From positions 1 to 41,169 of IMG/VR virus record IMGVR_UViG_3300012931_000037: DNA of 41,169 bases; one strand, 5' to 3'. The notes under the pieces are model-generated. The model saw only the letters and a list, made by a program, of their open reading frames with translations, did no database searches and was not told where the DNA came from. Position 1 is the stretch's first letter; every line of letters starts with the position of its first letter. A program made the position numbers and the translations under genes. The stretch is from a virus. Of the stretch, positions 14,574 to 31,656 are shown piece by piece.

Positions 14574-14981
14574 TTAGAACCCTCCATAAGATAATGATGG
14601 TGTCAAATATGCTTTCCTTAAAAATACACTGTCAGAACCAAGCGCAGGTATCTTGTCAAATTTCTTAATAACAAACGCCCCTTTTATCTTTCTTGGGTCA
14701 TCTATCGCATTGGAACTACTTTCATATTCATCATAAATATCATCAAGTGTCCCATTGTAAAGCATTCCCTCTTCTTCTACATCAATAGTAAGATAAACAG
14801 TAGCCCTTGATGTTATCGTGTTTCCCTTACTATCAGTAACAAGTTGTTTCATCTCCTCCCACTTGCAAGCAAGTTCTACCGGTTCATCAAAAGTATATCC
14901 TCCCCTACCATCATTTTTAGGGTTCCCCCAATAAACACATAGTTGAGAACAATTCCTTTCTATGATAGCCCCTATACTCAT
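14574..14981 (-). CDS. Head closure protein
   Basis: 135 residues, beta-rich, starting MSIGAIIERNCSQLCVYWG, with YTFDEPVELACKWEEMKQ and a C-terminal LTPSLSYGGF. The position (after the connector, before gp10) and barrel-like composition fit the head-closure or stopper protein of siphophage necks. The start overlaps the previous stop (TGA inside AATGAG). Confidence 0.65.
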   Translation of the reverse strand: MSIGAIIERNCSQLCVYWGNPKNDGRGGYTFDEPVELACKWEEMKQLVTDSKGNTITSRATVYLTIDVEEEGMLYNGTLDDIYDEYESSSNAIDDPRKIKGAFVIKKFDKIPALGSDSVFLRKAYLTPSLSYGGF

Positions 14982-15358
14982 TCGTCAAAACTTGGTATTG
15001 CGTACATTGTTGCTGATCTTTTACCTAAATTAGCCATCTTCCCTGTTATATCTAATGTTAAAACCATTTGTCCATACGAGGTAGAATCTAATCCTGTGGT
15101 AAACTTACCGGCATACTTAACCGAAGCATCCCCTAATTTTTCATCTGTTGTCGCCCTGAAATAAGGGGTACACGAAATCATGTGTGCCGTCAACCACCGT
15201 TCAACCTCTTTTAATAATGTATCACCAAGGACAGTGTCCCCGCTGAATACCTTATCAACAACCTCTGTAGCGGCAGTTATAAACACCGTTACGATAGCAT
15301 CTGACGTGGTACAACCACTCATTATCTCTTTAACTTCTGTTGCCGTTACCCTTGCCAT
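14978..15358 (-). CDS. Head-tail connector (adaptor) protein
   Basis: 126 residues, mostly helical: MARVTATEVKEIMSGC..DAIVTVFITAATEVVDKVF, then LKEVERWLTAHMIS. This helical pattern with an ERWLTAH motif is typical of gp6/gp15-type adaptor proteins that bind under the portal. It is the first neck gene after the glycan island, so the island splits capsid genes from neck genes. Confidence 0.75.
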   Translation of the reverse strand: MARVTATEVKEIMSGCTTSDAIVTVFITAATEVVDKVFSGDTVLGDTLLKEVERWLTAHMISCTPYFRATTDEKLGDASVKYAGKFTTGLDSTSYGQMVLTLDITGKMANLGKRSATMYAIPSFDE

Positions 15359-15524
15359 AATTTTCTTTTATAATAATGAAAAATATTTTAATTTTTTGTA
15401 ATAAAATCCAATATCTATTTATTTTTAAAGTTACCCATAGACTACCCGTATTGTCACTTATCATAATCCCTTCGTTCAGTTTAGGATTTTCTATCACTTT
15501 AATATACCAAGGATATTTTCCCAT
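15330..15524 (-). CDS. Small hypothetical protein, 64 aa
   Basis: It starts two bases after the sulfotransferase stop and begins MGKYPWYIKVIENPKLNEG. The first 40 residues look like a folded domain with Trp/Tyr, while the last third is AT-driven (KIKIFFIIIKENYGK) and overlaps the connector start by 29 bases. It may be a true small gene or the leader of the connector gene. No function is recognised. Confidence 0.4.
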   Translation of the reverse strand: MGKYPWYIKVIENPKLNEGIMISDNTGSLWVTLKINRYWILLQKIKIFFIIIKENYGKGNGNRS

Positions 15525-15526
15525 AA

Positions 15527-16156
15527 TTATTGTTTTTTTCTACTTTTCCAAAGTAGAGGTTCTATATATCTTTTAATCTTATTCTCATCATACTCAATCC
15601 CTATCCATTCACATAGGTCTTTTAACTGTCCATAGTCACTGTTAACCATCCTCTCCGGCCAAATGACTTTATAATTAACCCTCTCGATCATATCTTTAAA
15701 CCGTTCTTCATATTCATGAACCCAGTTAATCCATCCTGCTTCATCTTGGTGTGCGTTCATATAAGAGGTTTTTAAACACGACTGTACAATATCCCCAGTC
15801 CTCCTTCTTACAATAACCCATTTGGCCTTCGGGAAAGCATAATCCCATATAGGCCATATAAGACATGACTTAGAATCTTTATACATCCAGTTATCATTAC
15901 ACCCTTCTTTTTTAAGTATATCCAACACGTTATCTTTCCAGTAGTTAGGTATCAAAATATTATTAGTGTCCGGCAATGTTTTTTGACCTCTCGCATCAAT
16001 ACCAATACAGTTAAAATATGAATTAACCATCGTGCGGATGTTATAGTTTTCATTCATCTTATTCACACCACCTGAGAATATACCACATTCTTTTATTGCC
16101 CCTGCAATAATAGAAGCCCCGCTTCGTGGTACTCCTGTAACAAGTATTTCGCTCAT
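15527..16156 (-). CDS. Sulfotransferase-like protein
   Basis: 209 residues. The P-loop TGVPRSGASIIAGAI (residues 6-20) matches the 5'-phosphosulfate loop of PAPS-dependent sulfotransferases, and WVIVRRRTGDIVQSCLKT matches the 3'-phosphate-binding motif. The family transfers sulfate from PAPS to hydroxyls of sugars or other acceptors; PAPS would come from the host. The gene is the last of the glycan island and is coupled to a two-domain glycosyltransferase by ATGA, so a glycan acceptor is the natural guess. The length is short but near that of bacterial members. Confidence 0.8.
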   Translation of the reverse strand: MSEILVTGVPRSGASIIAGAIKECGIFSGGVNKMNENYNIRTMVNSYFNCIGIDARGQKTLPDTNNILIPNYWKDNVLDILKKEGCNDNWMYKDSKSCLIWPIWDYAFPKAKWVIVRRRTGDIVQSCLKTSYMNAHQDEAGWINWVHEYEERFKDMIERVNYKVIWPERMVNSDYGQLKDLCEWIGIEYDENKIKRYIEPLLWKSRKKQ

Positions 16157-17433
16157 CTGTATTTGTTTTTTACCAATTCTCTTTCATTATCTTTATCTTT
16201 TTTGCTTACTGTCCTTATTTTTTGTTGTGGGTGCCGACGGTAATAAGCAAGGAACGAGTTTGAATATCCAATCTTAAACCCTGCTTTTAAACACCTCATA
16301 TTAAATTCAAATTCTTCTGCTGTATTTAAAGTCTCGTCAAAACCACCTATCTTTTCAAATATATCCCTCCGGTACATTAACGTCGCACTATGTATTGTGT
16401 TTTTTATTAACATCGTTTCAATAGTCGGTGAAGCATTACTACAAATCCAATTCATTTTCTTCCCTGTTGCTTCTGTTATTTCTATTGCGTTACCATGAAT
16501 AAAATCCGCATCATTAATGGCCTTTATAGAATCCTCTATACAGTTAACCGTAAGCATGTCATCTTCATGCAGGTATTTAATATACTTACCGGTAGCCTGT
16601 GGTAATGCTTTATTAAAGTTCTCCGGCCAGTTCCCTTCTCCTTGGGATACTAATAATTGAACCTCAGAAGGCACGCTATTAATAGCATCTTTTAGCCATC
16701 CCCTGTCAACTTTATAAGGTATTATAACTGTAACGTCACTTATATTTAATTTCCTTAATGGGTATTCTTTTACATATCTCTTTACCCAATCAATAGAAAT
16801 AGAACCTTCTGCTATCTGGTATATCCTTGGTTTGCCATGAAAACAAACCAAATCAGTATTAACCGGGAGTACAGCAAGTAAATTCCTTTCACGTGGTTTA
16901 AAGTCTTTAATAGTGTCGGTAAGTTGTTGCCAGTAAACATCAGGCTTTACAACCTTCCTTAAAAACTCATCCATCCTAAACCTTGTATCATTTATCTGGT
17001 TTCTTGCTTCCCACACATCAGATATCTTTTTTGAATTAGCCGGAAACCAAACCAACCCAGTAGCCAATCTATCTTTCTGCCAAAAATCCTCAAGCGTTAT
17101 AAACTGGTCTTTATTCCTTATCAGGTCAAACATTCTCTCCACAGACGTGATTATAGCCGTATCAAGGTCTATATAAAGGAATGGACGATATTTCTCCATC
17201 TCAGGACTATATAACTCTATCCTTGACCAAGTACCTTTAAAATCGTTATTTAACGGCTTAATTTCGATATTACCTAAATCATATTCTGTAGTGGCCTTAT
17301 CCCATAAACATATTATCCTCGGTAATTCAACACTTCCCCATTTCCCCGTGATATGCCTGGAAATAAGTTCAACATCCCTAAACGAGAAGTCGCCACCTGA
17401 TCGTAATACCAAAACTATTGTCTGTTTATTCAT
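16153..17433 (-). CDS. Two-domain glycosyltransferase (GT-A + GT2)
   Basis: 426 residues in two parts. Residues 1-225 form a GT-A-like domain with a DxD motif in LYIDLDTAI. Residues about 230-420 form a GT2 domain opening DVTVIIPYKVDRGWLKDAI, with EDD in YLHEDDMLTVN as the metal site and RRDIFEKIGGFDETLNTAEE in the acceptor region. The protein could add two sugars in sequence. It couples by ATGA to the genes on both sides. Donor sugars cannot be read from the sequence. Confidence 0.8.
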   Translation of the reverse strand: MNKQTIVLVLRSGGDFSFRDVELISRHITGKWGSVELPRIICLWDKATTEYDLGNIEIKPLNNDFKGTWSRIELYSPEMEKYRPFLYIDLDTAIITSVERMFDLIRNKDQFITLEDFWQKDRLATGLVWFPANSKKISDVWEARNQINDTRFRMDEFLRKVVKPDVYWQQLTDTIKDFKPRERNLLAVLPVNTDLVCFHGKPRIYQIAEGSISIDWVKRYVKEYPLRKLNISDVTVIIPYKVDRGWLKDAINSVPSEVQLLVSQGEGNWPENFNKALPQATGKYIKYLHEDDMLTVNCIEDSIKAINDADFIHGNAIEITEATGKKMNWICSNASPTIETMLIKNTIHSATLMYRRDIFEKIGGFDETLNTAEEFEFNMRCLKAGFKIGYSNSFLAYYRRHPQQKIRTVSKKDKDNERELVKNKYR

Positions 17434-17993
17434 TCTTTCATTTTTAATATTTCTTCACTTAATTCTTTGTTAGTAAGCAATGTAGTATCTGGTATCCCCC
17501 CAAAATTTAAAACATTATTAAATGAGGAAAAATCATAATGGTACGCATCGTTATTGCCGTAATGTTCTGTATCGTGTACAATAATATAATCTGCCTTAAT
17601 TTTCATTAAAAATGGTTGTCTTAATTCAGCCGGCGCACCGTCTACAAAAGCAATCGCAAACTTATCTTCAAATACAGGGTCTATCAAGTCCTTGTTTATA
17701 ATCCTTAGTTCATGGCCGGGGCTTCTATAACTAATAAACTTTGCCAACCACGCCCCCTCTGTCTCTAAACTTAATAACTTTCTCCCTTGTAACCCACAAA
17801 TCATGTGCATTATATGGGTACTATGGTACCCAACACCAAATTCCAATACAGACCCGTTCTTTATAGTATTTAACATGTGCATTAACATCGGCTGATGCGA
17901 ACTATAAGCTAACATCGGCTTGCCTGATTTATACCTTAAATAAGACTCTTTCTGTTTGTCTTTTATCAGTTCTATATACTTATCGTTTACCAT
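17430..17993 (-). CDS. Class I SAM-dependent methyltransferase-like protein
   Basis: 187 residues. Motif I is GSVLEFGVGYHSTHIM (about residues 48-63), and the acidic end of beta 2 is LSLETEGAW. FAIAFVDGAPAELRQPFL fits the beta-4 region, and IIVHDTEHYG could hold a catalytic acid or metal site. O-methylation of a sugar is likely from its place in the island. It overlaps the previous gene by 14 bases. Confidence 0.68.
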   Translation of the reverse strand: MVNDKYIELIKDKQKESYLRYKSGKPMLAYSSHQPMLMHMLNTIKNGSVLEFGVGYHSTHIMHMICGLQGRKLLSLETEGAWLAKFISYRSPGHELRIINKDLIDPVFEDKFAIAFVDGAPAELRQPFLMKIKADYIIVHDTEHYGNNDAYHYDFSSFNNVLNFGGIPDTTLLTNKELSEEILKMKE

Positions 17994-18750
17994 ATATTTT
18001 GTTTTTCCAATAGTTAAATGTTAACAAATCATAATTCCAACTAATGCCTTTTATCCTTTGATATTCTTTTATTAAAAATTCTTCTGTAACCTGTTCCCAA
18101 TCTTCTACAAATAATATCGGTAATTCTTTATAGAACTGATTGTTTATGTTCCTTTTTTCAATAGGGATAGAACCCATATATAAAGCCTCCCATGTCCTTA
18201 CCGTGTCAATACCATTCCCTTCGGGGCAAATAATAAACTTGTGGTTATAAACGTTATCAATATACGAATCAAAATTGTTACCATTACTCCCTTTCTCTAT
18301 TGTTAACCAACAATTACATTTTTTTGCGAACAGTTCGTATATGCCATTTCGCTTTAAGTAATTAGTATCTACATTATGGTTTATATAAAGCAAGTTTTTA
18401 AACTTCTTTTCTTCACTTAGTTTATACCGCATCTTGCCTATTTTATCAACCCTTCTCAACCATTTATTATTTTCAAGCCCTAATGGTATTGACTCAACAC
18501 GTTCATTTACTACATTGACGTTCTGGCTAAACCAATGTATTAAATTGTCAGGCATTAAATTAACATTGGCCGAATCATTTCTTGTCATAACAGGCTCAAC
18601 ACATCCATCACTATTATGGCTAATTAATATAAACGGCTCTTTTGTTGGCATTCTTTTAAAGAACGTGTTAACCATGTGTGTTGGAGTGTAAAATATTTTT
18701 ACATTATCTGCTAAAGCAGCAAACTTATCCCCTTGTATAAAATCATTCAT
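17980..18750 (-). CDS. Exostosin-like glycosyltransferase
   Basis: About 256 residues from the ATG at 18750, chosen because it overlaps the previous stop as ATGA (an ATG at 18765 is also open). The C-terminal half has FIICPEGNGIDTVRTWEALY followed by MGSIPI, the nucleotide-sugar site seen in exostosin/GT47-like and related GT-B proteins. No membrane anchor is present, so it acts in the cytoplasm. The donor and acceptor are unknown. Confidence 0.68.
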   Translation of the reverse strand: MNDFIQGDKFAALADNVKIFYTPTHMVNTFFKRMPTKEPFILISHNSDGCVEPVMTRNDSANVNLMPDNLIHWFSQNVNVVNERVESIPLGLENNKWLRRVDKIGKMRYKLSEEKKFKNLLYINHNVDTNYLKRNGIYELFAKKCNCWLTIEKGSNGNNFDSYIDNVYNHKFIICPEGNGIDTVRTWEALYMGSIPIEKRNINNQFYKELPILFVEDWEQVTEEFLIKEYQRIKGISWNYDLLTFNYWKNKIYGKR

Positions 18751-19316
18751 ATCTTTACTGCACAAACTAATCCAACACTATCTTCCCCTTCTTTATACGT
18801 GATACCATCAAGTTCAAACACTATCTTCCAGTTTTCACTATGATGTAAATATTCTTTTACTAATACTGATTTAACAGATATGGCATTATCATATTTTCTC
18901 TTTTTAGTTTCCCAGTCGTGCATACAAAACACGGTACCGCTACTAAGATGTTTTTCTAACGTCAGGAAGTCGTCAATAGATACCTTTTCGTCCTCTGGCC
19001 CATCGAAGAATATAAAATCAGGTACCCATTTGATATTTAAAATATAATCAATAAGTTCAGATGAAACTATTGGAAAATATTTCACAATATCTTTATACCT
19101 ATTAAAAAACGCATCAGAAGGATGCCTTTGAGGGTCGCATGTATATATCTTACCACTTCCTATTTCTATTAATGCCTCTGCCATAACAGAAGTAGAACCA
19201 CCTATCCCGGTTCCTACTTCCAGTATCTTTCCCGGACGGTACCTCAAAACAGTATTGTATAATACATTCCGTTCATGTAAAGTTAATTCACCTTGTATCT
19301 TGCTTAAATCAATCAT
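18747..19316 (-). CDS. Class I SAM-dependent methyltransferase
   Basis: 189 residues. Motif I is ILEVGTGIGGSTSVMAEAL (about 32-50), followed by IYTCDPQ, the acidic ribose-binding turn. PDFIFFDGPEDEKVSIDDF and VFCMHDW fit the Methyltransf_24 / sugar O-methyltransferase group. The start overlaps the previous stop. Together with the gene at 17430 this gives the island two methyltransferases. Confidence 0.8.
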   Translation of the reverse strand: MIDLSKIQGELTLHERNVLYNTVLRYRPGKILEVGTGIGGSTSVMAEALIEIGSGKIYTCDPQRHPSDAFFNRYKDIVKYFPIVSSELIDYILNIKWVPDFIFFDGPEDEKVSIDDFLTLEKHLSSGTVFCMHDWETKKRKYDNAISVKSVLVKEYLHHSENWKIVFELDGITYKEGEDSVGLVCAVKI

Positions 19317-20181
19317 TGCTCATGTATAAATGAAGGTTCTTACTATGTATGTGTAAATTATTTATCCTTACTTCTTTATCGTTATATTTAAAATATGGCT
19401 GTTTCCGGCCAAAATTATCTTTTCTCCATGTTACCGTAAATTCCGGGTTATTTTCAAGCATAACGCCTATATAATGGTCTTTAGGTTTTGCCCCCGGAAT
19501 GCCGTTAGTGGTACCTCCTACAAACTGACCCCATGAAGCCGGGTCGAATATTGAATTAAAACCAGAAACATTATATTCTATACCAAATGGCATAGTAGGT
19601 AATGACCCCATCCCTTTCTCATCAAAGTATATTCTCATTAAGGTCATCTCATTAACCATTTCCAATTTATACTTATCTCTTATCTCCCTAATACTATTCT
19701 GTTTTAATAACATTATGAAGAAATCAGTCATCGCCTCAAGTGCTTTATAATCCTTAATAAACATAAATCCGGTCATGCACTTATCTACTCCCCCAACTGT
19801 GATAGCCAATCCTTTATAGTTATTTAAAAACACTTCATGTAATTCCGATAGGTCGTAATAAAGTAACACGTCATTCTCAAAGCAATAAACATCTTTAAAA
19901 TTATTATCCCTGATAAAGTTTTTAATATAAATCAACCTTGTAGCGGTTATTGTCCAAAAGCCGGGTTTATTATACAAAACCTCAAATTCACCAACCTCTT
20001 TTGACCAGTATAAATCTTTATTAGCTTTGGTTATGTTGTATTTGTCGAATATGTCATTGTTTAAATTCTCTTTATCGGTAATAAAATAAACAACCAGGTT
20101 AGGGTTAAATATCCTAATCTGCCTGAAAGCATATTCCAGATATAATGGTAATTTCCCGCTATGGAACAATACTAAATCCAT
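19309..20181 (-). CDS. GT-A-like glycosyltransferase
   Basis: 290 residues. It begins MDLVLFHSGKLPLYLEYAFR; the middle has VYCFENDVLLYYDL, where END stands where a DxD would be, and ITVGGVDKCMTGFMFIKDY follows. The C-terminus holds NNLHIHSKNL, a His-rich end often seen in these enzymes. I place it in the GT-A group with moderate confidence. It overlaps the DUF6492-like gene by 10 bases. Confidence 0.65.
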   Translation of the reverse strand: MDLVLFHSGKLPLYLEYAFRQIRIFNPNLVVYFITDKENLNNDIFDKYNITKANKDLYWSKEVGEFEVLYNKPGFWTITATRLIYIKNFIRDNNFKDVYCFENDVLLYYDLSELHEVFLNNYKGLAITVGGVDKCMTGFMFIKDYKALEAMTDFFIMLLKQNSIREIRDKYKLEMVNEMTLMRIYFDEKGMGSLPTMPFGIEYNVSGFNSIFDPASWGQFVGGTTNGIPGAKPKDHYIGVMLENNPEFTVTWRKDNFGRKQPYFKYNDKEVRINNLHIHSKNLHLYMSND

Positions 20182-20906
20182 GAGTGCATACTTATTATAT
20201 TAACACGTGAATACTTATTCGATTCTATGGCCTTGGCCATTTCTTCATCAGTCCACAACCTTTGCTTTGCAATTTTTTTCACTTTTAAATAAACATAATC
20301 ATAAAGTCCCGGGTAATATTTAGTTACATAATTGCCATATAGTTCATATTCAGAGAAACCAGACTGGTTGTTCATCCTGTTTATTTCTTTCACGCACAAA
20401 TCAAATACCCCGTCTTTTGTAAGCCCCGTCCGGGATACCATATCCACTATAATATCCCTTTTGAAAAACATCATCTCATTGATAAAAGAATACGGATAAC
20501 ATTTATCTAATTCAAAAATATTCTTCATTAAGTTAAAATATGGCTTATGACATTGATCTTCCCCAAACCAGAAAGAGGGTTTTTCTACATCAACTGTTAA
20601 TGGGCTATTAATATAAGCATCAGAATCTATTACCAAATAATTATCAAGTGTTATGTCTTGAAATAACTTAATGAACTGTTGTTTATACCAACCAATGCGA
20701 TTAACAATATTTATCTTTGAGAAGTTAAAATCAATAATATCATCGGTAAAATACAAAACCCCATCAACCTTAAACTCTTTTGGGATAGTTTTATCCGATA
20801 CTATGTATATCTTATTAAACCCTTCTACGTTTAACGCAATAGATTTTACAACAAACCTCAGTTTATTAAAATCTTTCTCTGCTATGGTTATTAAAACATC
20901 AAACAT
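20172..20906 (-). CDS. DUF6492-like glycosyltransferase
   Basis: 244 residues. MFDVLITIAEKDFNKLRFVV and NYLVIDSDAYINSPL with a DSD metal site show a GT-A fold, and GFSEYELYGNYVTKYYPG matches the conserved acidic block of DUF6492 proteins. It follows the fucosyltransferase with an 8-base overlap. Likely a cytoplasmic sugar transferase in the same pathway. Confidence 0.72.
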   Translation of the reverse strand: MFDVLITIAEKDFNKLRFVVKSIALNVEGFNKIYIVSDKTIPKEFKVDGVLYFTDDIIDFNFSKINIVNRIGWYKQQFIKLFQDITLDNYLVIDSDAYINSPLTVDVEKPSFWFGEDQCHKPYFNLMKNIFELDKCYPYSFINEMMFFKRDIIVDMVSRTGLTKDGVFDLCVKEINRMNNQSGFSEYELYGNYVTKYYPGLYDYVYLKVKKIAKQRLWTDEEMAKAIESNKYSRVNIISMHSWI

Positions 20907-21651
20907 TTAACTTAATCCAATTGTTTGGTAGTAATTGTCTTTCTTCAACCCAATAATCTTGGAAATACCTATACCATATCTTTGGGCAAATAACAATATC
21001 GCTGTTAAGGAATGAAGCCCACCAGCTAAATGTACTATTAGGTATTATTTTATGCTTACAGGTCTTTAATAACTCAAAATCAAGGCATGGTGATAAATGG
21101 ACAAAATTAACACCTTTGAAATTCTCTTTACACCATTCCATGTCATCACTAAAAACGTAAAATACAGGATTATCGACTAATGAATACATTATTTCTATTC
21201 CAGCAAGATAATAAGAAAGCGGCATCACAATATGGGCATTACTCTGAAGAAAATCCCCTCTCCTTACATGGATACCTACAGAATTGCATTCTGATATGTC
21301 TTTCTTTAAACTTTCGAAATCATTTGTGTATAATTCTTTCTTTACCGTAAATTCTTGCTTTAATAAAGGCATTATGTCTTTGAAATATAAAGGTGACTGC
21401 CAATACCCCACAAAATTATATCCTTTTATATCCAATATGTCTAAATTAAACTCATCATCCCGCTTAACACGTTTTTTAAACATATTGCATATCTCAATAT
21501 TAAGGTTGAAATTATTTAAAAGGAACGACCTATCTTTATTAGGTGTCTCATACCAACTAATATCATAACCGACATTAGTTGTCATAGCCTGCCCAAAAGC
21601 ATACTGAAAAAACTGGTTCCCAAGACCACCGCAAAGTTTAATTACATTCAT
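20899..21651 (-). CDS. GT11 alpha-1,2-fucosyltransferase-like protein
   Basis: 250 residues. The N-terminus VIKLCGGLGNQFFQYAFGQA and the motif GIHVRRGDFLQ are the GT11 hallmarks, with the Arg/Asp pair binding GDP-fucose. NSTFSWWASFLNSD is the third conserved block. Known family members add L-fucose in alpha-1,2 linkage to galactose. It needs GDP-fucose from the host. It overlaps the Maf-like gene by 14 bases. Slightly shorter than typical enzymes, but all motifs are present. Confidence 0.9.
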   Translation of the reverse strand: MNVIKLCGGLGNQFFQYAFGQAMTTNVGYDISWYETPNKDRSFLLNNFNLNIEICNMFKKRVKRDDEFNLDILDIKGYNFVGYWQSPLYFKDIMPLLKQEFTVKKELYTNDFESLKKDISECNSVGIHVRRGDFLQSNAHIVMPLSYYLAGIEIMYSLVDNPVFYVFSDDMEWCKENFKGVNFVHLSPCLDFELLKTCKHKIIPNSTFSWWASFLNSDIVICPKIWYRYFQDYWVEERQLLPNNWIKLNV

Positions 21652-22360
21652 TCATGATATCTTTTAACGTGGCTTTCTTAAAACACTGTATTGCACTATC
21701 TGGCGAAACATTAATTATCTCGACACCTCTTTTTTTTGCATCTTGGGCTATAAACGGAAATCCTGTCAAATGTCTGTCAAAAGGAATCGTATAAGGCCTC
21801 CCTCTTCTATTTTTACTTGTCCTTATCTTTTCAAGCCTCCCGTAAAGGTCATGCCAGTGTTGTTTCCTGCTTTCGTCTAACTTCATGTCGAACCCTAATA
21901 AAAAAATCCTTTTAGCACCGGTGTTAACAGCTAAACTTATTGCAGCAGCACCACTATTCCCATTCCAACTAACACACGAAGCCAGAGGGCTTATCCCTTT
22001 TCTGTGTTTCTTGTCTACTGGCAAATATTTAACCCATTTATGTTTATTAGTAATAGCGGCACAGCTAACCTTTAACCCTTTGAACTTGGCCAACTCAACC
22101 TGATGCGACAAAAAGAAACTTGGGTCTCCAAAAAATACCATATCAATCCAATCACCGATCAAATAAGATACGTTAATACCAATAACATGCTTGTCGTGTA
22201 AAAATGACATATATGGAGAATACACGCTTGGGGGGAGTTTCCCTGAAACAACGTTTTGCACCATCGTCTCCGGTATGCTAAATTGTTTTGTAACAGAAGG
22301 GCCACCCCCCAATATCCAAACGTCACCATCTTCCCATATCTTTGGCACATCCCAAATCAT
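21638..22360 (-). CDS. DUF115 / Maf-like glycosyltransferase
   Basis: 240 residues. WILGGGPSVTKQF near the N-terminus and GNSGAAAISLAVNTGAKRIFL followed by LGFDMK are typical of the DUF115/MptE-like group (PF01973), which includes the Maf proteins that glycosylate flagellin. It heads the island, coupled to the 106-residue gene by TAATG. In Maf systems the target is a self-assembling protein made at high level; a capsid target here would be analogous, but that is inference. Confidence 0.72.
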   Translation of the reverse strand: MIWDVPKIWEDGDVWILGGGPSVTKQFSIPETMVQNVVSGKLPPSVYSPYMSFLHDKHVIGINVSYLIGDWIDMVFFGDPSFFLSHQVELAKFKGLKVSCAAITNKHKWVKYLPVDKKHRKGISPLASCVSWNGNSGAAAISLAVNTGAKRIFLLGFDMKLDESRKQHWHDLYGRLEKIRTSKNRRGRPYTIPFDRHLTGFPFIAQDAKKRGVEIINVSPDSAIQCFKKATLKDIMNECN

Positions 22361-22680
22361 TAGTCGTTCATTTTTGTTAACAACTCATCAGCCTTAATTT
22401 CGGTTAAACCCTTTTCGTTAACCTTCTTTCCATCTTCATTGAGTATATCCCACCACTGGGTACCTTCTCTTTTGACCTTCTTAAAAAGCACTTTAGTCAC
22501 AACAACATCTTCTGCCGGTGTTTCTTTTATCTTACTAAGAGGTGTAATAATATTCCTCAATGTTTTTGATATCTCGGACGGTTTGGCTGTAAATGTTTGT
22601 CCGGGTTTAATTATCCTTCCATGAAAACGGAACGATCCCCTTCCTACCTTTTTAAACTGAACTTCTTCTTCTCTTTCCAT
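22360..22680 (-). CDS. Small protein after the major capsid gene, 106 aa
   Basis: A beta-rich, basic protein with GRGSFRFHGRIIKPGQTFTA near the N-terminus and a charged C-terminus. It lies between the major capsid gene and the glycan island. It may be a minor head protein or decoration, and it is a candidate acceptor for the glycan island because it is translationally coupled to the Maf-like gene. I do not recognise the family with certainty. Confidence 0.55.
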   Translation of the reverse strand: MEREEEVQFKKVGRGSFRFHGRIIKPGQTFTAKPSEISKTLRNIITPLSKIKETPAEDVVVTKVLFKKVKREGTQWWDILNEDGKKVNEKGLTEIKADELLTKMND

Positions 22681-22724: not shown

Positions 22725-23804
22725 TTAGGCCAAATGCACAAGGCCGCATTTGCCATTCTGATCACTTCTGATCTGTGGTACACGTATGGTCATAACTTTG
22801 TATTTATGAACCATTCCACCTTCGGTTTCCCATTCAACGTTTTTCAAACCCATGCCATCAATAAGCCGTACTGTCTCTTGTTTCATCTCAACAAGTACAA
22901 CATTGTTAGCTGGAAGGGTATCATTAACCTTAACGGCTTTAATACCTTCAAGTTTCAATATACGTTCCTTTATTGTAAGGGTTGTACCTGCAACTGTAGT
23001 GGTATAGTCGTCTTCTACATAACTTTCGTATTCAGTAGGTATATAAAGTATCCAAGGGCCATAATGGTTTTGTGCTATAGAAGCAGCTTTCATTTCCATT
23101 ACGTCCTGAAGGATACCTGCTGGCCCTATTGAAGACTGATCCCAAGGAATACTAAGGTTTACAGAGTTACGGTCAGGAAAGTTAAGATAAGAATAAATAG
23201 TATTATTACCCCTATCGTCCTTTTCTCCATAATTGTAAGTAGTATCAGTGAAAAGCATGTTCTCTAACTTTTCCATAACCTTACGGACAGCCATCTCAAC
23301 ATCTGTAGTGTCAAGTGGGTTGCCTAACCTACGGCTTGCCTCTAATGCCCTCGCATTTATCTCATAATCAAAGTGTGTTATTGGAATAGGCAGGTAATTA
23401 GTCTGGTAGTTAGGACGGTCACCTTTCGACCGGGTAACACCATCCATCGTTACTTCTGCTTCTCCAAAATCACCCGAATCATGCCACTCAAGGACAGTAG
23501 TACCCATAGCATTACCAAGTGTATATACACACTGGTTATCAATAAGGTCTTGTATCCCCCCTAAACGATAACGGCTTGCGGTTAACAATGCTTCATCAAG
23601 GAATTTCCATTCATCCCTGCGAAGGGTTGCGTTCACATTAATTGGCCTTACAATAAAGCTCTTTTTGTCTTTTGGGTCTCCACCCATATAAATAGACACG
23701 TAAGAACGGCCATCTTTTCCTATCCACGGACGTTTCATCCCAAAGTCAAATCTCCCATTGACGATGCAGTTCTGAAACGATCCATTCACATTTGTATTAG
23801 GCAT
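22725..23804 (-). CDS. Major capsid protein (HK97 fold)
   Basis: 359 residues. The segment PITHFDYEINARALEASRRL, followed by TTDVEMAVRKVMEKLENMLF, resembles the E-loop and spine region of HK97-fold shells, with a flavour of the encapsulin/linocin group. The P-domain reading GPWILYIPTEYESYVEDDY is typical. There is no long N-terminal delta domain, so the scaffold is probably the nested protein at 24339-24755. A strong AAGGAGG precedes the ATG. It forms the icosahedral head. Confidence 0.85.
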   Translation of the reverse strand: MPNTNVNGSFQNCIVNGRFDFGMKRPWIGKDGRSYVSIYMGGDPKDKKSFIVRPINVNATLRRDEWKFLDEALLTASRYRLGGIQDLIDNQCVYTLGNAMGTTVLEWHDSGDFGEAEVTMDGVTRSKGDRPNYQTNYLPIPITHFDYEINARALEASRRLGNPLDTTDVEMAVRKVMEKLENMLFTDTTYNYGEKDDRGNNTIYSYLNFPDRNSVNLSIPWDQSSIGPAGILQDVMEMKAASIAQNHYGPWILYIPTEYESYVEDDYTTTVAGTTLTIKERILKLEGIKAVKVNDTLPANNVVLVEMKQETVRLIDGMGLKNVEWETEGGMVHKYKVMTIRVPQIRSDQNGKCGLVHLA

Positions 23805-28463: not shown

Positions 28464-30035
28464 TTATTTGTTTTCAAATATTATCAAATCAGTGTAAGAA
28501 TTATATAAATCAGACATACTTCCAGTCACGTTTCCCATAACCATGATTCTTTCACTTCTCGTTATTGCATTTCTAGTTTGACTTCCGATTGTTATTTTTT
28601 GATTGTCCGTTTCTCCCGTCCTTAATAATTTTGTGGAAAGCAATGCCGTTGAACTATAATTATATAACTTAACATCATTGTTGTTTTTTAAATCTATGTT
28701 CAAGATGTCAAACGTATCTCCGTTTCTCATAAGTCGTAAAAACGTATCAGCCGCATATCCCTCTTGAATTATGCCATTAATGACACTGCTCAAGTCTATT
28801 AATTCGGTGAAGTTTTCATATAAGGTACAGGCCTGAAATGTTGTTTTTGAATAACCGGTTCCAGTGACCGTGCCTGCGGAAGTGGCCCCATACCCAACTA
28901 AAGAATACAATGTATCATTTTTCACAAACCCACCTAAGAAGACAGCAGTATAGTCATCTCCATGTGAATGATCACTTATTAAGCAATGCTCAATAGCTTC
29001 TGCCCTTGTTATTGATCCATCTGCAACAATATTCTTAGACCATGATCTGTCTGAATTATAATAAGTTATTCCGTCGTAACTTCTAAAATGAAAAACAACT
29101 GGCCATGGAAAATATGTACCGATAGTATCATTCCTTTCATTTATTACCAAGTTAATTTCATCTACACCACTCAATATAGTATGATAAGAACGAAAGTAAG
29201 AACCAGTCGTATATAATGTAACGTAGGGGTTTACAAGTTCAATCCAATTAGCACAATCATCAACAGACTTATAACAACTTATTTTATATTGACAATTGCT
29301 GATAGTTGAATCTCCTCTGACAAAAAGATAAAAAATGCCATTTATTATCTGCACCTTGGGATAGGCATAATTGTCTCCTATACTTGTAATATATGACCAA
29401 GTAGCTCCTCCATCTTCAGATTTTTTAACGTAAATAGTTGAATTATGACCTCCACTATTGGTTGCTGAAACACCCACTAGTTTTTCATGAAAACAATATA
29501 CAATTCCATCCTTTTCAATGTACGCCGCCTTTCCATGTGAATCAAATGTACCTGCCGTGGACACATCATACCCTACAAGATTAGGTGCAGAATACACTCC
29601 ATCTGTATTTCGAATAATATTAAAATTTTCTCGATTAAATGTAGTTCCGCCTCGGCTTAGACATCCTATTAAATCTGCACCATTCTCTAGCCGTAGTATC
29701 GACGGTTCGTAATTTATGTCAAGCAACATTCCATATTCTGAACCCCTATTTAATTCAATTGAATGTTCAATCTTTGTATAAGGTTGATTATCATCAATAT
29801 TCTTGCAATTTTGATTTATATTTTGAATAAAAGAATATACTCTTTGTCCTACATTTATATTTAACCTTGCCGGGATTGAAACATCTATATTTTTTACATA
29901 ATCGTAATTAGAATTAAACGTACTGATCAGTTCCTCAGAAAGCATTGAGAATGTAATTTTATCTTTAGAAGGAAAATTATTATTCAATGCTAAAATATAC
30001 TCCGTAGCAGTCATGCCCTCTACAATTAACGTCAT
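28464..30035 (-). CDS. BNR/sialidase-like repeat protein, probable glycan-binding virion protein
   Basis: 523 residues. An Asp-box is visible as KKSEDGGATWSYI at about residues 205-217, with further YKSVDDCANWIEL and similar beta-propeller spacing. DGIVYCFHEKLVG and INGIFYLFVRGDS look like propeller strands. The N-terminal 100 residues have no propeller features and may attach to the virion. I cannot confirm the Arg triad of true sialidases, so it may bind glycans rather than cleave them. It lies, unusually, between terminase and portal genes and couples to the upstream fibre-like gene by ATGA. Confidence 0.65.
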   Translation of the reverse strand: MTLIVEGMTATEYILALNNNFPSKDKITFSMLSEELISTFNSNYDYVKNIDVSIPARLNINVGQRVYSFIQNINQNCKNIDDNQPYTKIEHSIELNRGSEYGMLLDINYEPSILRLENGADLIGCLSRGGTTFNRENFNIIRNTDGVYSAPNLVGYDVSTAGTFDSHGKAAYIEKDGIVYCFHEKLVGVSATNSGGHNSTIYVKKSEDGGATWSYITSIGDNYAYPKVQIINGIFYLFVRGDSTISNCQYKISCYKSVDDCANWIELVNPYVTLYTTGSYFRSYHTILSGVDEINLVINERNDTIGTYFPWPVVFHFRSYDGITYYNSDRSWSKNIVADGSITRAEAIEHCLISDHSHGDDYTAVFLGGFVKNDTLYSLVGYGATSAGTVTGTGYSKTTFQACTLYENFTELIDLSSVINGIIQEGYAADTFLRLMRNGDTFDILNIDLKNNNDVKLYNYSSTALLSTKLLRTGETDNQKITIGSQTRNAITRSERIMVMGNVTGSMSDLYNSYTDLIIFENK

Positions 30036-31288
30036 AATTTAGCTCCTATATCGTTAAGATAACCACTGATCATTATATCGTATAATAATTCTACTTCTGT
30101 GCTGGTAAGTCCGCTACCCATAAAAGCAAATGCTATCTGTTTTTCTGAAAACAAGGCTGGGGTGCCATTATTTAATATAGCAAGTAAACCCATCTCTGTA
30201 GGTAATCCTGTTGCCGTAATAGATGCCGCAGTTCTTATTTTATTTTTATAAACAGCCTGAGTTGTACTCGACTCTCTTATAGCAGCAAAAAAACCCGAAC
30301 CATCTGTATTCACAACTTGTTGAATAGTATTTACATTGATATAACCATCAATCTTATCAGCAGTAGTTCTCGCCTTTATTGATGCTCTAACAGTATAAGC
30401 CCCCATCTCTATGCCAGCCCCCTGTCCTGATGTTCTCGAATAAAATCCAAATGATGCACTGTTTTTTATATAATTAAATCCGCCCAAGGAAGGATTAATC
30501 CCTGTTTTAAGATACATTGTAGCAGCATCTCCAGTAATCCCCTCGTCAATAGTAAAAATAGGTGCAATGCCATCTGCTAAATTATAATTATTTAACCAAT
30601 CTAATCTATACGATAAACTGCCATGTGCCGCAGGAGTCCATATTGCATCAAGTTTTGTGTCAAGATTATTTGCAATTAATGATAAGAATGCCTTTTGAAT
30701 TACAAGCCGACGTGACATATCAGGAGGCTCCCCTAATGCTATCATTTTAATAAATAGATCGTTAGCTTTCGGAATCCATATTGATTGCCCTGTTCCTCGA
30801 TTCCCTTTCAGGACACCATGAATACTAAGTACATTATTCCACCATACAGACAAATGAAAATCATCACGCATTTTATTTTCAATTAGCGTTATAACTGGTG
30901 ATGATAATATCATTATGCATTCAATCGAATAAGGAGATGTATCTTTATATTTTACAATTGTCCTTGTAAAATCATAACCGACCATCTCCACTTCAGTTAT
31001 AGTTCTCTGAACACCATCTGTTTTAAACCAAACATAATCAGTATCGGCAGCAATATATTGAGCAGTATTAGGGCATTGAAAAGTATAAGAACCAACAGCA
31101 CCACCAACCGTCAAGAAATCAGTAGAACCAACTTTTTGATTGTAAAGTTTCTCATTAGTTATTTTTGTTATTTCACCAAAAAACAGAACCTCTGATTGAG
31201 ACTTCCAATAACCCGCCCAGTTAAACGCACTGCCACCAAGCGAATTAACCACATTACTAACAACCGATCTTACAACAGGCCTTATCAT
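30032..31288 (-). CDS. Fibre- or lectin-like virion protein
   Basis: 418 residues from the ATG at 31288, which overlaps the previous stop as TAATG. The first half is beta-rich (FNWAGYWKSQSEVLFFGEIT). The second half is lectin-like and ends with FAFMGSGLTSTEVELLYD, a tail often seen at the end of LamG-type domains in phage adhesins. It is likely a receptor-binding or decoration protein working with the BNR protein next to it. Confidence 0.55.
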   Translation of the reverse strand: MIRPVVRSVVSNVVNSLGGSAFNWAGYWKSQSEVLFFGEITKITNEKLYNQKVGSTDFLTVGGAVGSYTFQCPNTAQYIAADTDYVWFKTDGVQRTITEVEMVGYDFTRTIVKYKDTSPYSIECIMILSSPVITLIENKMRDDFHLSVWWNNVLSIHGVLKGNRGTGQSIWIPKANDLFIKMIALGEPPDMSRRLVIQKAFLSLIANNLDTKLDAIWTPAAHGSLSYRLDWLNNYNLADGIAPIFTIDEGITGDAATMYLKTGINPSLGGFNYIKNSASFGFYSRTSGQGAGIEMGAYTVRASIKARTTADKIDGYINVNTIQQVVNTDGSGFFAAIRESSTTQAVYKNKIRTAASITATGLPTEMGLLAILNNGTPALFSEKQIAFAFMGSGLTSTEVELLYDIMISGYLNDIGAKL

Positions 31289-31656
31289 TACCAATCAAAT
31301 CCAAAAGTTACTGAACCACTTGTATAATCACCTTCTTTTACTCCGGCACGCCAAAACACATCAGCCCCGGTATCTTCAATCTGCTTCCTGTCACCGATAG
31401 CAATATCAGAACCATCGTTATAGTAATCCTGCCACCGTCCATCGCTGCTGCACTTAAATTGTAATGTAACGGTAATAACAGAAGTATCGACCGACTCACT
31501 ATCAGAAGCCTCCCTCACAGAGAAATATATTTTGTCAAGCTTATTGGTCTTGGCAAGCTTTCTTATACTTACCTCATCTGTGAAGTATCCATCAGCAGGG
31601 TCGGTATCTACTGTTGCATACCTTTTAAACTCCCCATTATCTTTACTGTTTGCCAT
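31288..31656 (-). CDS. Hypothetical beta-sandwich protein, 122 aa
   Basis: It begins MANSKDNGEFKRYATVDTDP and ends EGDYTSGSVTFGFDW. The composition suggests an Ig-like or jelly-roll fold found among small virion proteins. It heads the inserted adhesin block and couples to the fibre-like gene by TAATG. No enzymatic motif is visible. Confidence 0.55.
   Translation of the reverse strand: MANSKDNGEFKRYATVDTDPADGYFTDEVSIRKLAKTNKLDKIYFSVREASDSESVDTSVITVTLQFKCSSDGRWQDYYNDGSDIAIGDRKQIEDTGADVFWRAGVKEGDYTSGSVTFGFDW

Follow-up and report, generated by a model that had tools for sequence, protein, structure and literature searches.

A modular glycan-modification and sulfotransferase island in the head operon of an uncultured siphovirus lineage, most likely decorating virion proteins

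Introduction

Phages can glycosylate their own virions, with capsid and tail-tube glycosylation by phage glycosyltransferases (GTs) proven in the mycobacteriophages Che8, Corndog, and Myrna (Freeman 2023, as cited in PMC12363180, PMC11256854, and PMC12619734). As far as these citing articles describe it, those phages employ one or a few GTs, located close to the 3' genome end in the related phage Maravista. At least two glycoproteins were also detected by proteomics in Xanthomonas phage XacN1, in which we find a run of a Maf-like gene and a phrog_1962 GT (261719-264341), however, the authors point to other GT genes (PMC5852040). Here, we examine the island between the capsid and neck genes of a 41,169-base virus record (IMGVR_UViG_3300012931_000037), which is only part of a genome and is referred to, at its full length, as the window. 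Dedicated GTs are encoded by this phage as by the mycobacteriophages, and their action on head proteins is proposed here from the genes, but in this lineage up to 11 cargo genes occupy one fixed site together with a Maf-like enzyme, methyltransferases, and a sulfotransferase or adenosine-5'-phosphosulfate (APS) kinase. Our reading, held with moderate confidence, is that the most likely product of the island is a glycan on a head-neck virion protein, started by Maf, then elongated, methylated, and capped with sulfate. No paper describing this island was found in a search of the open-access literature; virion glycosylation itself is already known, and the apparent novelty lies in an anchored cassette whose cargo can be swapped and which has a sulfation branch of its own.

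Genes annotated as "alpha-2,3-sialyltransferase" (phrog_4603) in phages D3, PAJU2, and P1 are homologous to the Maf-like gene of the island (E 1e-22 to 1e-28 against the Maf profile for D3 and PAJU2), although no cargo island is present there. In D3 the homologue likewise sits between the capsid gene (plus one small open reading frame, ORF) and the head-tail connector, and in P1 (NC_005856 79592-82150) it is found near pmgQ among "putative morphogenetic" genes. The N-terminal half of the two-domain GT of the window is itself homologous to P1 PmgQ, and a Maf-like gene and a phrog_1962 GT are near neighbours in both P1 and XacN1, which are unrelated named phages. Cell-surface polysaccharide (cps/O-antigen) loci share with the island their conserved ends, variable GT middle, and horizontal exchange, whereas no polymerase, flippase, or export genes were seen in the island. 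The island works in the manner of such a locus transferred to a phage head operon, most likely to serve the virion.

The capsid-to-neck interval is a modular hot spot

Relatives were gathered through terminase, Maf, and capsid searches. A single capsid sequence returned no close relatives from viral contigs; the terminase, Maf, and alignment queries found them, and one viral collection contains more than 550 capsid relatives. The capsid-to-neck interval, readable in 72 distinct loci (L numbers below; window included), is a modular hot spot with an exchangeable enzyme set. It ranges from 83 bp to 10.8 kb (median 4.8 kb), exceeding 300 bp in 68/72 loci, and 96% of successive ORFs in the islands overlap or sit no more than 20 bp apart. 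The Maf-like gene is present in 63 loci and comes first, after a gene for a 106-aa protein (g106) or a small ORF, in 62 of these. At the opposite end, 52 loci have an ORF-called sulfotransferase (a looser search raises the sulfotransferase-bearing loci to 55), and in 51 of the 52 nothing comes after it except, in some, an APS kinase or tiny ORF. This arrangement is far beyond chance because dozens of relatives share it and its ends stay fixed. Between the ends lie 0 to 11 cargo genes, the 81 Pfam-searched representatives of which include methyltransferases, GT2 and other GTs, an aminotransferase, epimerases, hexapeptide transferases, and APS kinase. GTs, methyltransferases, and nucleotide-sugar enzymes all vary there. 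The set found in the window (Maf, GT11, DUF6492, GT-A, methyltransferase, exostosin, two-domain GT, and sulfotransferase) recurs partly or wholly in 12 other loci.

The island is also dispensable, since on the capsid tree the four nearly empty intervals (L124, L117, L024, and L121) require no fewer than three separate changes. The close relatives L152 and L146 are 76-77% identical in DNA up to the end of Maf, L146 then carries approximately 4.2 kb of cargo, and both resume at the neck gene, the one after the Maf stop codon and the other after the cargo block. Overall, a co-transcribed glycan-modification operon within the head-neck cassette is well supported, based on the overlaps, the fixed location, Maf at its head, Maf fusions, and APS kinase beside the sulfotransferase.

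Relatives recovered in genome bins trace to environmental bins, bacterial and archaeal, that span many phyla. Host assignment from these bins was considered, however, it scatters over phyla and is not used as proof. Given these environmental sources, the earlier suggestion that the glycan evades or exploits mucosal recognition has no support. One distant relative with Maf and GT (L126) lies within a Zixibacteria chromosome assembly (CP070742.1, 3148656-3169534), with integrases approximately 60-70 kb away on both sides, and may be a prophage.

The island in the window

The window reads as a siphovirus late region on the minus strand, in the order terminase, portal, head morphogenesis, a 582-aa head-maturation-protease-like protein, decoration, major capsid, and island, followed by neck, tail tube, chaperone, tape measure, and tail genes. 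As initially annotated, nine minus-strand ORFs tile positions 22360 to 15527, and 8/8 internal junctions overlap, by 4-19 bp. The features are as follows:

22725..23804, minus strand: major capsid protein, HK97-type (phrog_771, DUF6260), upstream border of the island; homologues in the 72 aligned loci
22360..22680, minus strand: g106, 106-aa protein between the capsid and Maf-like genes; tracks capsid phylogeny
21638..22360, minus strand: Maf-like glycosyltransferase with GGGPS, N63, FGD, LGFD, and HWH motifs, the proposed initiating, protein-glycosylating enzyme; profile and fold
20899..21651, minus strand: GT11 (alpha-1,2-fucosyltransferase-type) glycosyltransferase; PF01531 E 1.8e-28, phrog_2644 E 1.6e-38
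20172..20906, minus strand: DUF6492-like GT-A glycosyltransferase, weakly Stealth-related; E 4e-4, sub-threshold in Pfam
19309..20181, minus strand: putative GT-A glycosyltransferase; sequence character, with no profile match
18747..19316, minus strand: class I S-adenosylmethionine (SAM) methyltransferase (Methyltransf_24); E 8e-11
17980..18765, minus strand: exostosin/RXYLT1-like (GT47-type) glycosyltransferase with a TTG start; E 3.6e-6 / 2.8e-4
17430..17993, minus strand: putative class I methyltransferase; motifs VLEFGVG... and FVDGAP, no Pfam match, phrog_6608 E 0.07
16153..17433, minus strand: two-domain glycosyltransferase; N-terminal half phrog_1962 E 4e-22, C-terminal half GT2 E 1.6e-5
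15527..16156, minus strand: 3'-phosphoadenosine-5'-phosphosulfate (PAPS)-dependent sulfotransferase, 5'-phosphosulfate-binding (5'-PSB) loop TGVPRSGAS and 3'-phosphate motif RRRTGDIVQS; Sulfotransfer_3 E 1e-4, family profile, motifs
15330..15524, minus strand: 64-aa ORF, possibly not a gene; no match
14978..15358, minus strand: neck/head-tail connector protein (phrog_302), downstream border of the island; profile and aligned loci

The family assignments first proposed for these ORFs hold strongly for GT11 (100 bits against a PF01531 cut-off of 23.9) and also for Methyltransf_24, exostosin, and the two-domain GT; two ORFs have no Pfam match, and the DUF6492-like and sulfotransferase calls are sub-threshold in Pfam, the latter being upheld by other means (see below). 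The putative GT-A gene adjoins the DUF6492 gene in 6 loci. The description of the glycan as fucosylated is drawn from GT11 membership and would apply only to the GT11-bearing subset (13/72 loci). The layout also needed amending, as g106 (22360-22680) intervenes between the capsid and Maf-like genes and belongs to the module, the exostosin gene sits between the two methyltransferase genes, and the doubtful 64-aa ORF (15330-15524) precedes the connector (14978-15358) that does follow the island.

The cargo has a guanine-cytosine content of 31-36%, compared to 39% for both the head genes and Maf. Promoters and terminators within the island showed no excess over shuffled sequences. Most minus-strand gene starts in the window have an A/T-rich leader and no Shine-Dalgarno sequence, with the capsid gene as the exception; such starts resemble those of Bacteroidota and may be a weak hint at the host. 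A second variable site is seen between terminase and portal (window 28464-31656; three ORFs of 122, 420, and 523 aa with no Pfam match), and this gap ranges among relatives from approximately 13 bp (L004) up to several kb.

The Maf-like enzyme

The window protein matches phrog_4603 (E 3e-30), however, its match to PF01973 (MptE-like/DUF115) is weak (E 0.0026; 18.0 bits against a cut-off of 34.6), and we therefore name it "Maf-like" and do not file it as a member. The best PDB match of a family model built from 44 sequences (AlphaFold2, pLDDT 92.7) is 5mu5, the Maf flagellin glycosyltransferase of Magnetospirillum (Foldseek; prob 1.00, E 5e-4, TMq 0.51), followed by MptE-type HPPK and the sialyltransferase CstII. 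The Maf/DUF115-like call is thus borne out by phrog_4603 and by fold, less so by PF01973. Residues G18-G20, S22, N63, F77-G78-D79, G156, D158, and N217 are invariant in the 44 Mafs, with H170 in 43/44. The phage enzyme has the fold and a GGGPS-type nucleotide-sugar motif in common with 5mu5, and its acceptor is likewise proposed to be a protein; it differs in consisting of just a 240-aa core where the 5mu5 chain has 632 residues, and in being encoded in a head operon.

Maf-like domains are fused to GT2 domains (L060:3585-6908) or to GT8 and Methyltransf_24 (L104:1591-4518), which ties these enzymes into one pathway. Further fusions to GT2 or GT8, sometimes with a methyltransferase, occur in L071, L111, L187, and L201. 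Across all six loci, the fusion proteins reach approximately 1,100 aa. A CMP-sugar synthetase was found in 1/26 records searched, outside the island (G041, the phage of L191, 49073-49669; PF02348 E 1e-44), and could possibly supply a Maf donor.

The Maf-like protein could alternatively be a structural or assembly protein with a retained transferase fold, the cargo being passenger DNA at a recombination hot spot. The PAJU2 homologue is annotated "structural protein" and that of P1 "putative morphogenetic function," and total loss of the island is tolerated at this site. However, the invariance of catalytic-type motifs across such diverse Mafs, covariation of Maf with cargo type, its fusion to GT and methyltransferase domains, and a recognised cargo consisting mostly of glycan chemistry make this explanation very unlikely.

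Resident edge genes and exchanged cargo

The g106 gene is nearly always the first ORF after the capsid gene where an island is present and is absent from the three emptiest sites. Its position corresponds to that of lambda FI, and structure comparison hints only very weakly at the gpFI C-terminal domain; no PHROG, PDB, or fold match of weight was obtained. D3 orf6.5 and the MaInes small ORF were considered as relatives, however, no relationship was detectable. It is tandem-duplicated or present in extra copies in L176, L181, L208, and L210.

Within the main clade, where numbers are modest, identity in g106 and in the sulfotransferase correlates with capsid identity (Spearman 0.34) much as that in neck and portal does (0.31-0.35). 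Maf (0.04-0.06), the GT2 N-domain, exostosin, and GT11 do not follow the capsid in this way. The sequence of Maf instead follows GT11 cargo type (0/500 permutations). These patterns suggest that g106 and the sulfotransferase are resident edge genes, with Maf and the cargo forming an exchanged cassette.

The sulfotransferase and APS kinase

The window sulfotransferase scores 22.9 bits against the PF13469 cut-off of 27, and PF00685 has no match in the window record. Nonetheless, its family profile aligns near full length to solved protein-tyrosine sulfotransferases, which it finds first (E 4e-7), and PAPS-binding motifs are conserved (R11 and G13 in 36/36, S12 in 34/36, R118 in 36/36, and S126 in 35/36), such that profile and motifs uphold the assignment. 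The enzyme, here known from sequence, thus has both motifs and near full-length alignment in common with the Sulfotransfer_3 and protein-tyrosine families. No homologues were found in the named-phage collection. The initial wording "possibly sulfated" was an understatement because the sulfotransferase is one of the two fixed ends.

At least seven relatives have an APS kinase (PF01583 E 1e-15 to 1e-19) within the island, in most cases immediately downstream of the sulfotransferase. Short APS kinases are seen at L062:12201-12662, L066:8671-9093, L070:17030-17491, and L073:15353-15847, and also in the head operons of L166, L108, L109, and L115. The window island itself has none, and its phage would use host PAPS.

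It is conceivable that the sulfotransferase acts apart from the glycan, on tyrosines of a head or neck protein. The order of the profile matches points this way, as do its tracking of the capsid, in which it differs from Maf, and two loci (L026 and L120) whose capsid-to-neck interval holds g106 and a sulfotransferase but neither Maf nor a GT. The nearest solved structure is weak evidence, however, because bacterial glycan sulfotransferases may be under-represented among structures. Neck Tyr82 was considered as an acceptor, being Phe in 4/4 empty sites, but three phages with a sulfotransferase also have Phe there, and Tyr occurs in phages lacking the enzyme. Separate tyrosine sulfation is improbable in our estimation.

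What does the island modify?

Maf enzymes classically act on flagellin, and sulfate and methyl groups are common on cell-surface glycans. Both would suit an island that modifies the host surface (capsule, lipopolysaccharide, S-layer, or flagellin) during infection or a carrier state, excluding competitors or changing the receptor, which was the alternative raised initially. Surface modification is a frequent role of phage GTs in lysogens (PMC12619734), and an integrated form is possible in the distant Zixibacteria branch (L126). However, 18 long lineage contigs contain no tyrosine integrase or serine recombinase, only 1/476 island proteins have two or more predicted transmembrane segments compared to 29/914 control ORFs, and no O-antigen-type acyltransferase (Acyl_transf_3) was found; therefore, no GtrAB-, flippase-, or OafA-like parts are seen. 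The membrane flippase/transferase genes and temperate lifestyle of serotype-conversion (gtr/oac) cassettes were not found here. Late expression with the head genes would also be a poor moment to remodel the envelope of a dying cell. Taken together, we regard host-surface modification as unlikely, though more plausible than the other alternatives.

Virus-encoded GTs can also build DNA glycans, according to a citing article (Pyle 2024, cited in PMC12619734), and the enzymes could hypermodify phage DNA with glycosylated bases against host nucleases. However, thymidylate-synthase-family enzymes, the base-modifying type expected, occur in just 1/19 records, being absent from 17/18 long relatives and from the window, itself a partial genome. 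Furthermore, the Maf, GT47-type, and sulfotransferase classes are protein or glycan enzymes, and the island is in the head operon and not in the replication region, which leaves DNA hypermodification highly improbable.

Decoration of a virion protein, as initially proposed, is the best explanation, favoured by the late head-operon site, the soluble cargo, the lack of integrase and Acyl_transf_3, the scarcity of thymidylate synthase, and the precedents in other phages. Several observations weigh against it. Ser/Thr and Tyr columns of capsid, decoration, neck, tail-tube, and portal proteins were searched for association with the presence of the island, Maf, or the sulfotransferase, and none in capsid, decoration, neck, or tail-tube convincingly tracks the island given phylogeny; the top associations were rejected because they follow the deep split of the lineage. 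Capsids of island-free phages are also alike in Ser+Thr content. Maf does not co-vary with the capsid, unlike what might be expected of a dedicated capsid-recognising enzyme, Maf and the sulfotransferase are each missing from some islands, and the lineage is uncultured.

In the following scheme of virion decoration, the late timing of expression, the acceptor and sugars, the order of reactions, and the purpose are inferred. A late-expressed, exchangeable cassette would act in the host cytoplasm while virions assemble, decorating a virion protein of the head or neck. The Maf-like enzyme would move the first sugar from a host-supplied nucleotide sugar onto the protein acceptor, the GT11, DUF6492-like, GT-A, exostosin-like, and two-domain enzymes would lengthen the chain, and one or two methyltransferases would methylate it. 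The sulfotransferase may then cap the glycan, or a nearby tyrosine, using PAPS, which some relatives would supply through their own APS kinase. The purpose is probably a diversifying surface shield or an altered interaction with receptor or matrix.

Conclusion

Tentatively, and with slightly less than even confidence, we suggest that these phages carry sulfated virions, the swappable cassette placing sulfate on a protein-linked glycan or on a head/neck tyrosine, and that cargo exchange changes the chemistry of the coat in the manner of a virion serotype locus. If confirmed, sulfation would be a modification for which we found no report in phage virions. The island also offers soluble cytoplasmic enzymes ready for use in protein glycosylation and sulfation. 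E. coli phage P1 and Pseudomonas phage D3, with their homologues of the initiating enzyme, are tractable models. Virion glycosylation has been proven in only a few phages, and here a large uncultured lineage keeps a dedicated genomic slot, the natural empty, minimal, and full versions of which make the purpose of phage glycans testable by comparison.

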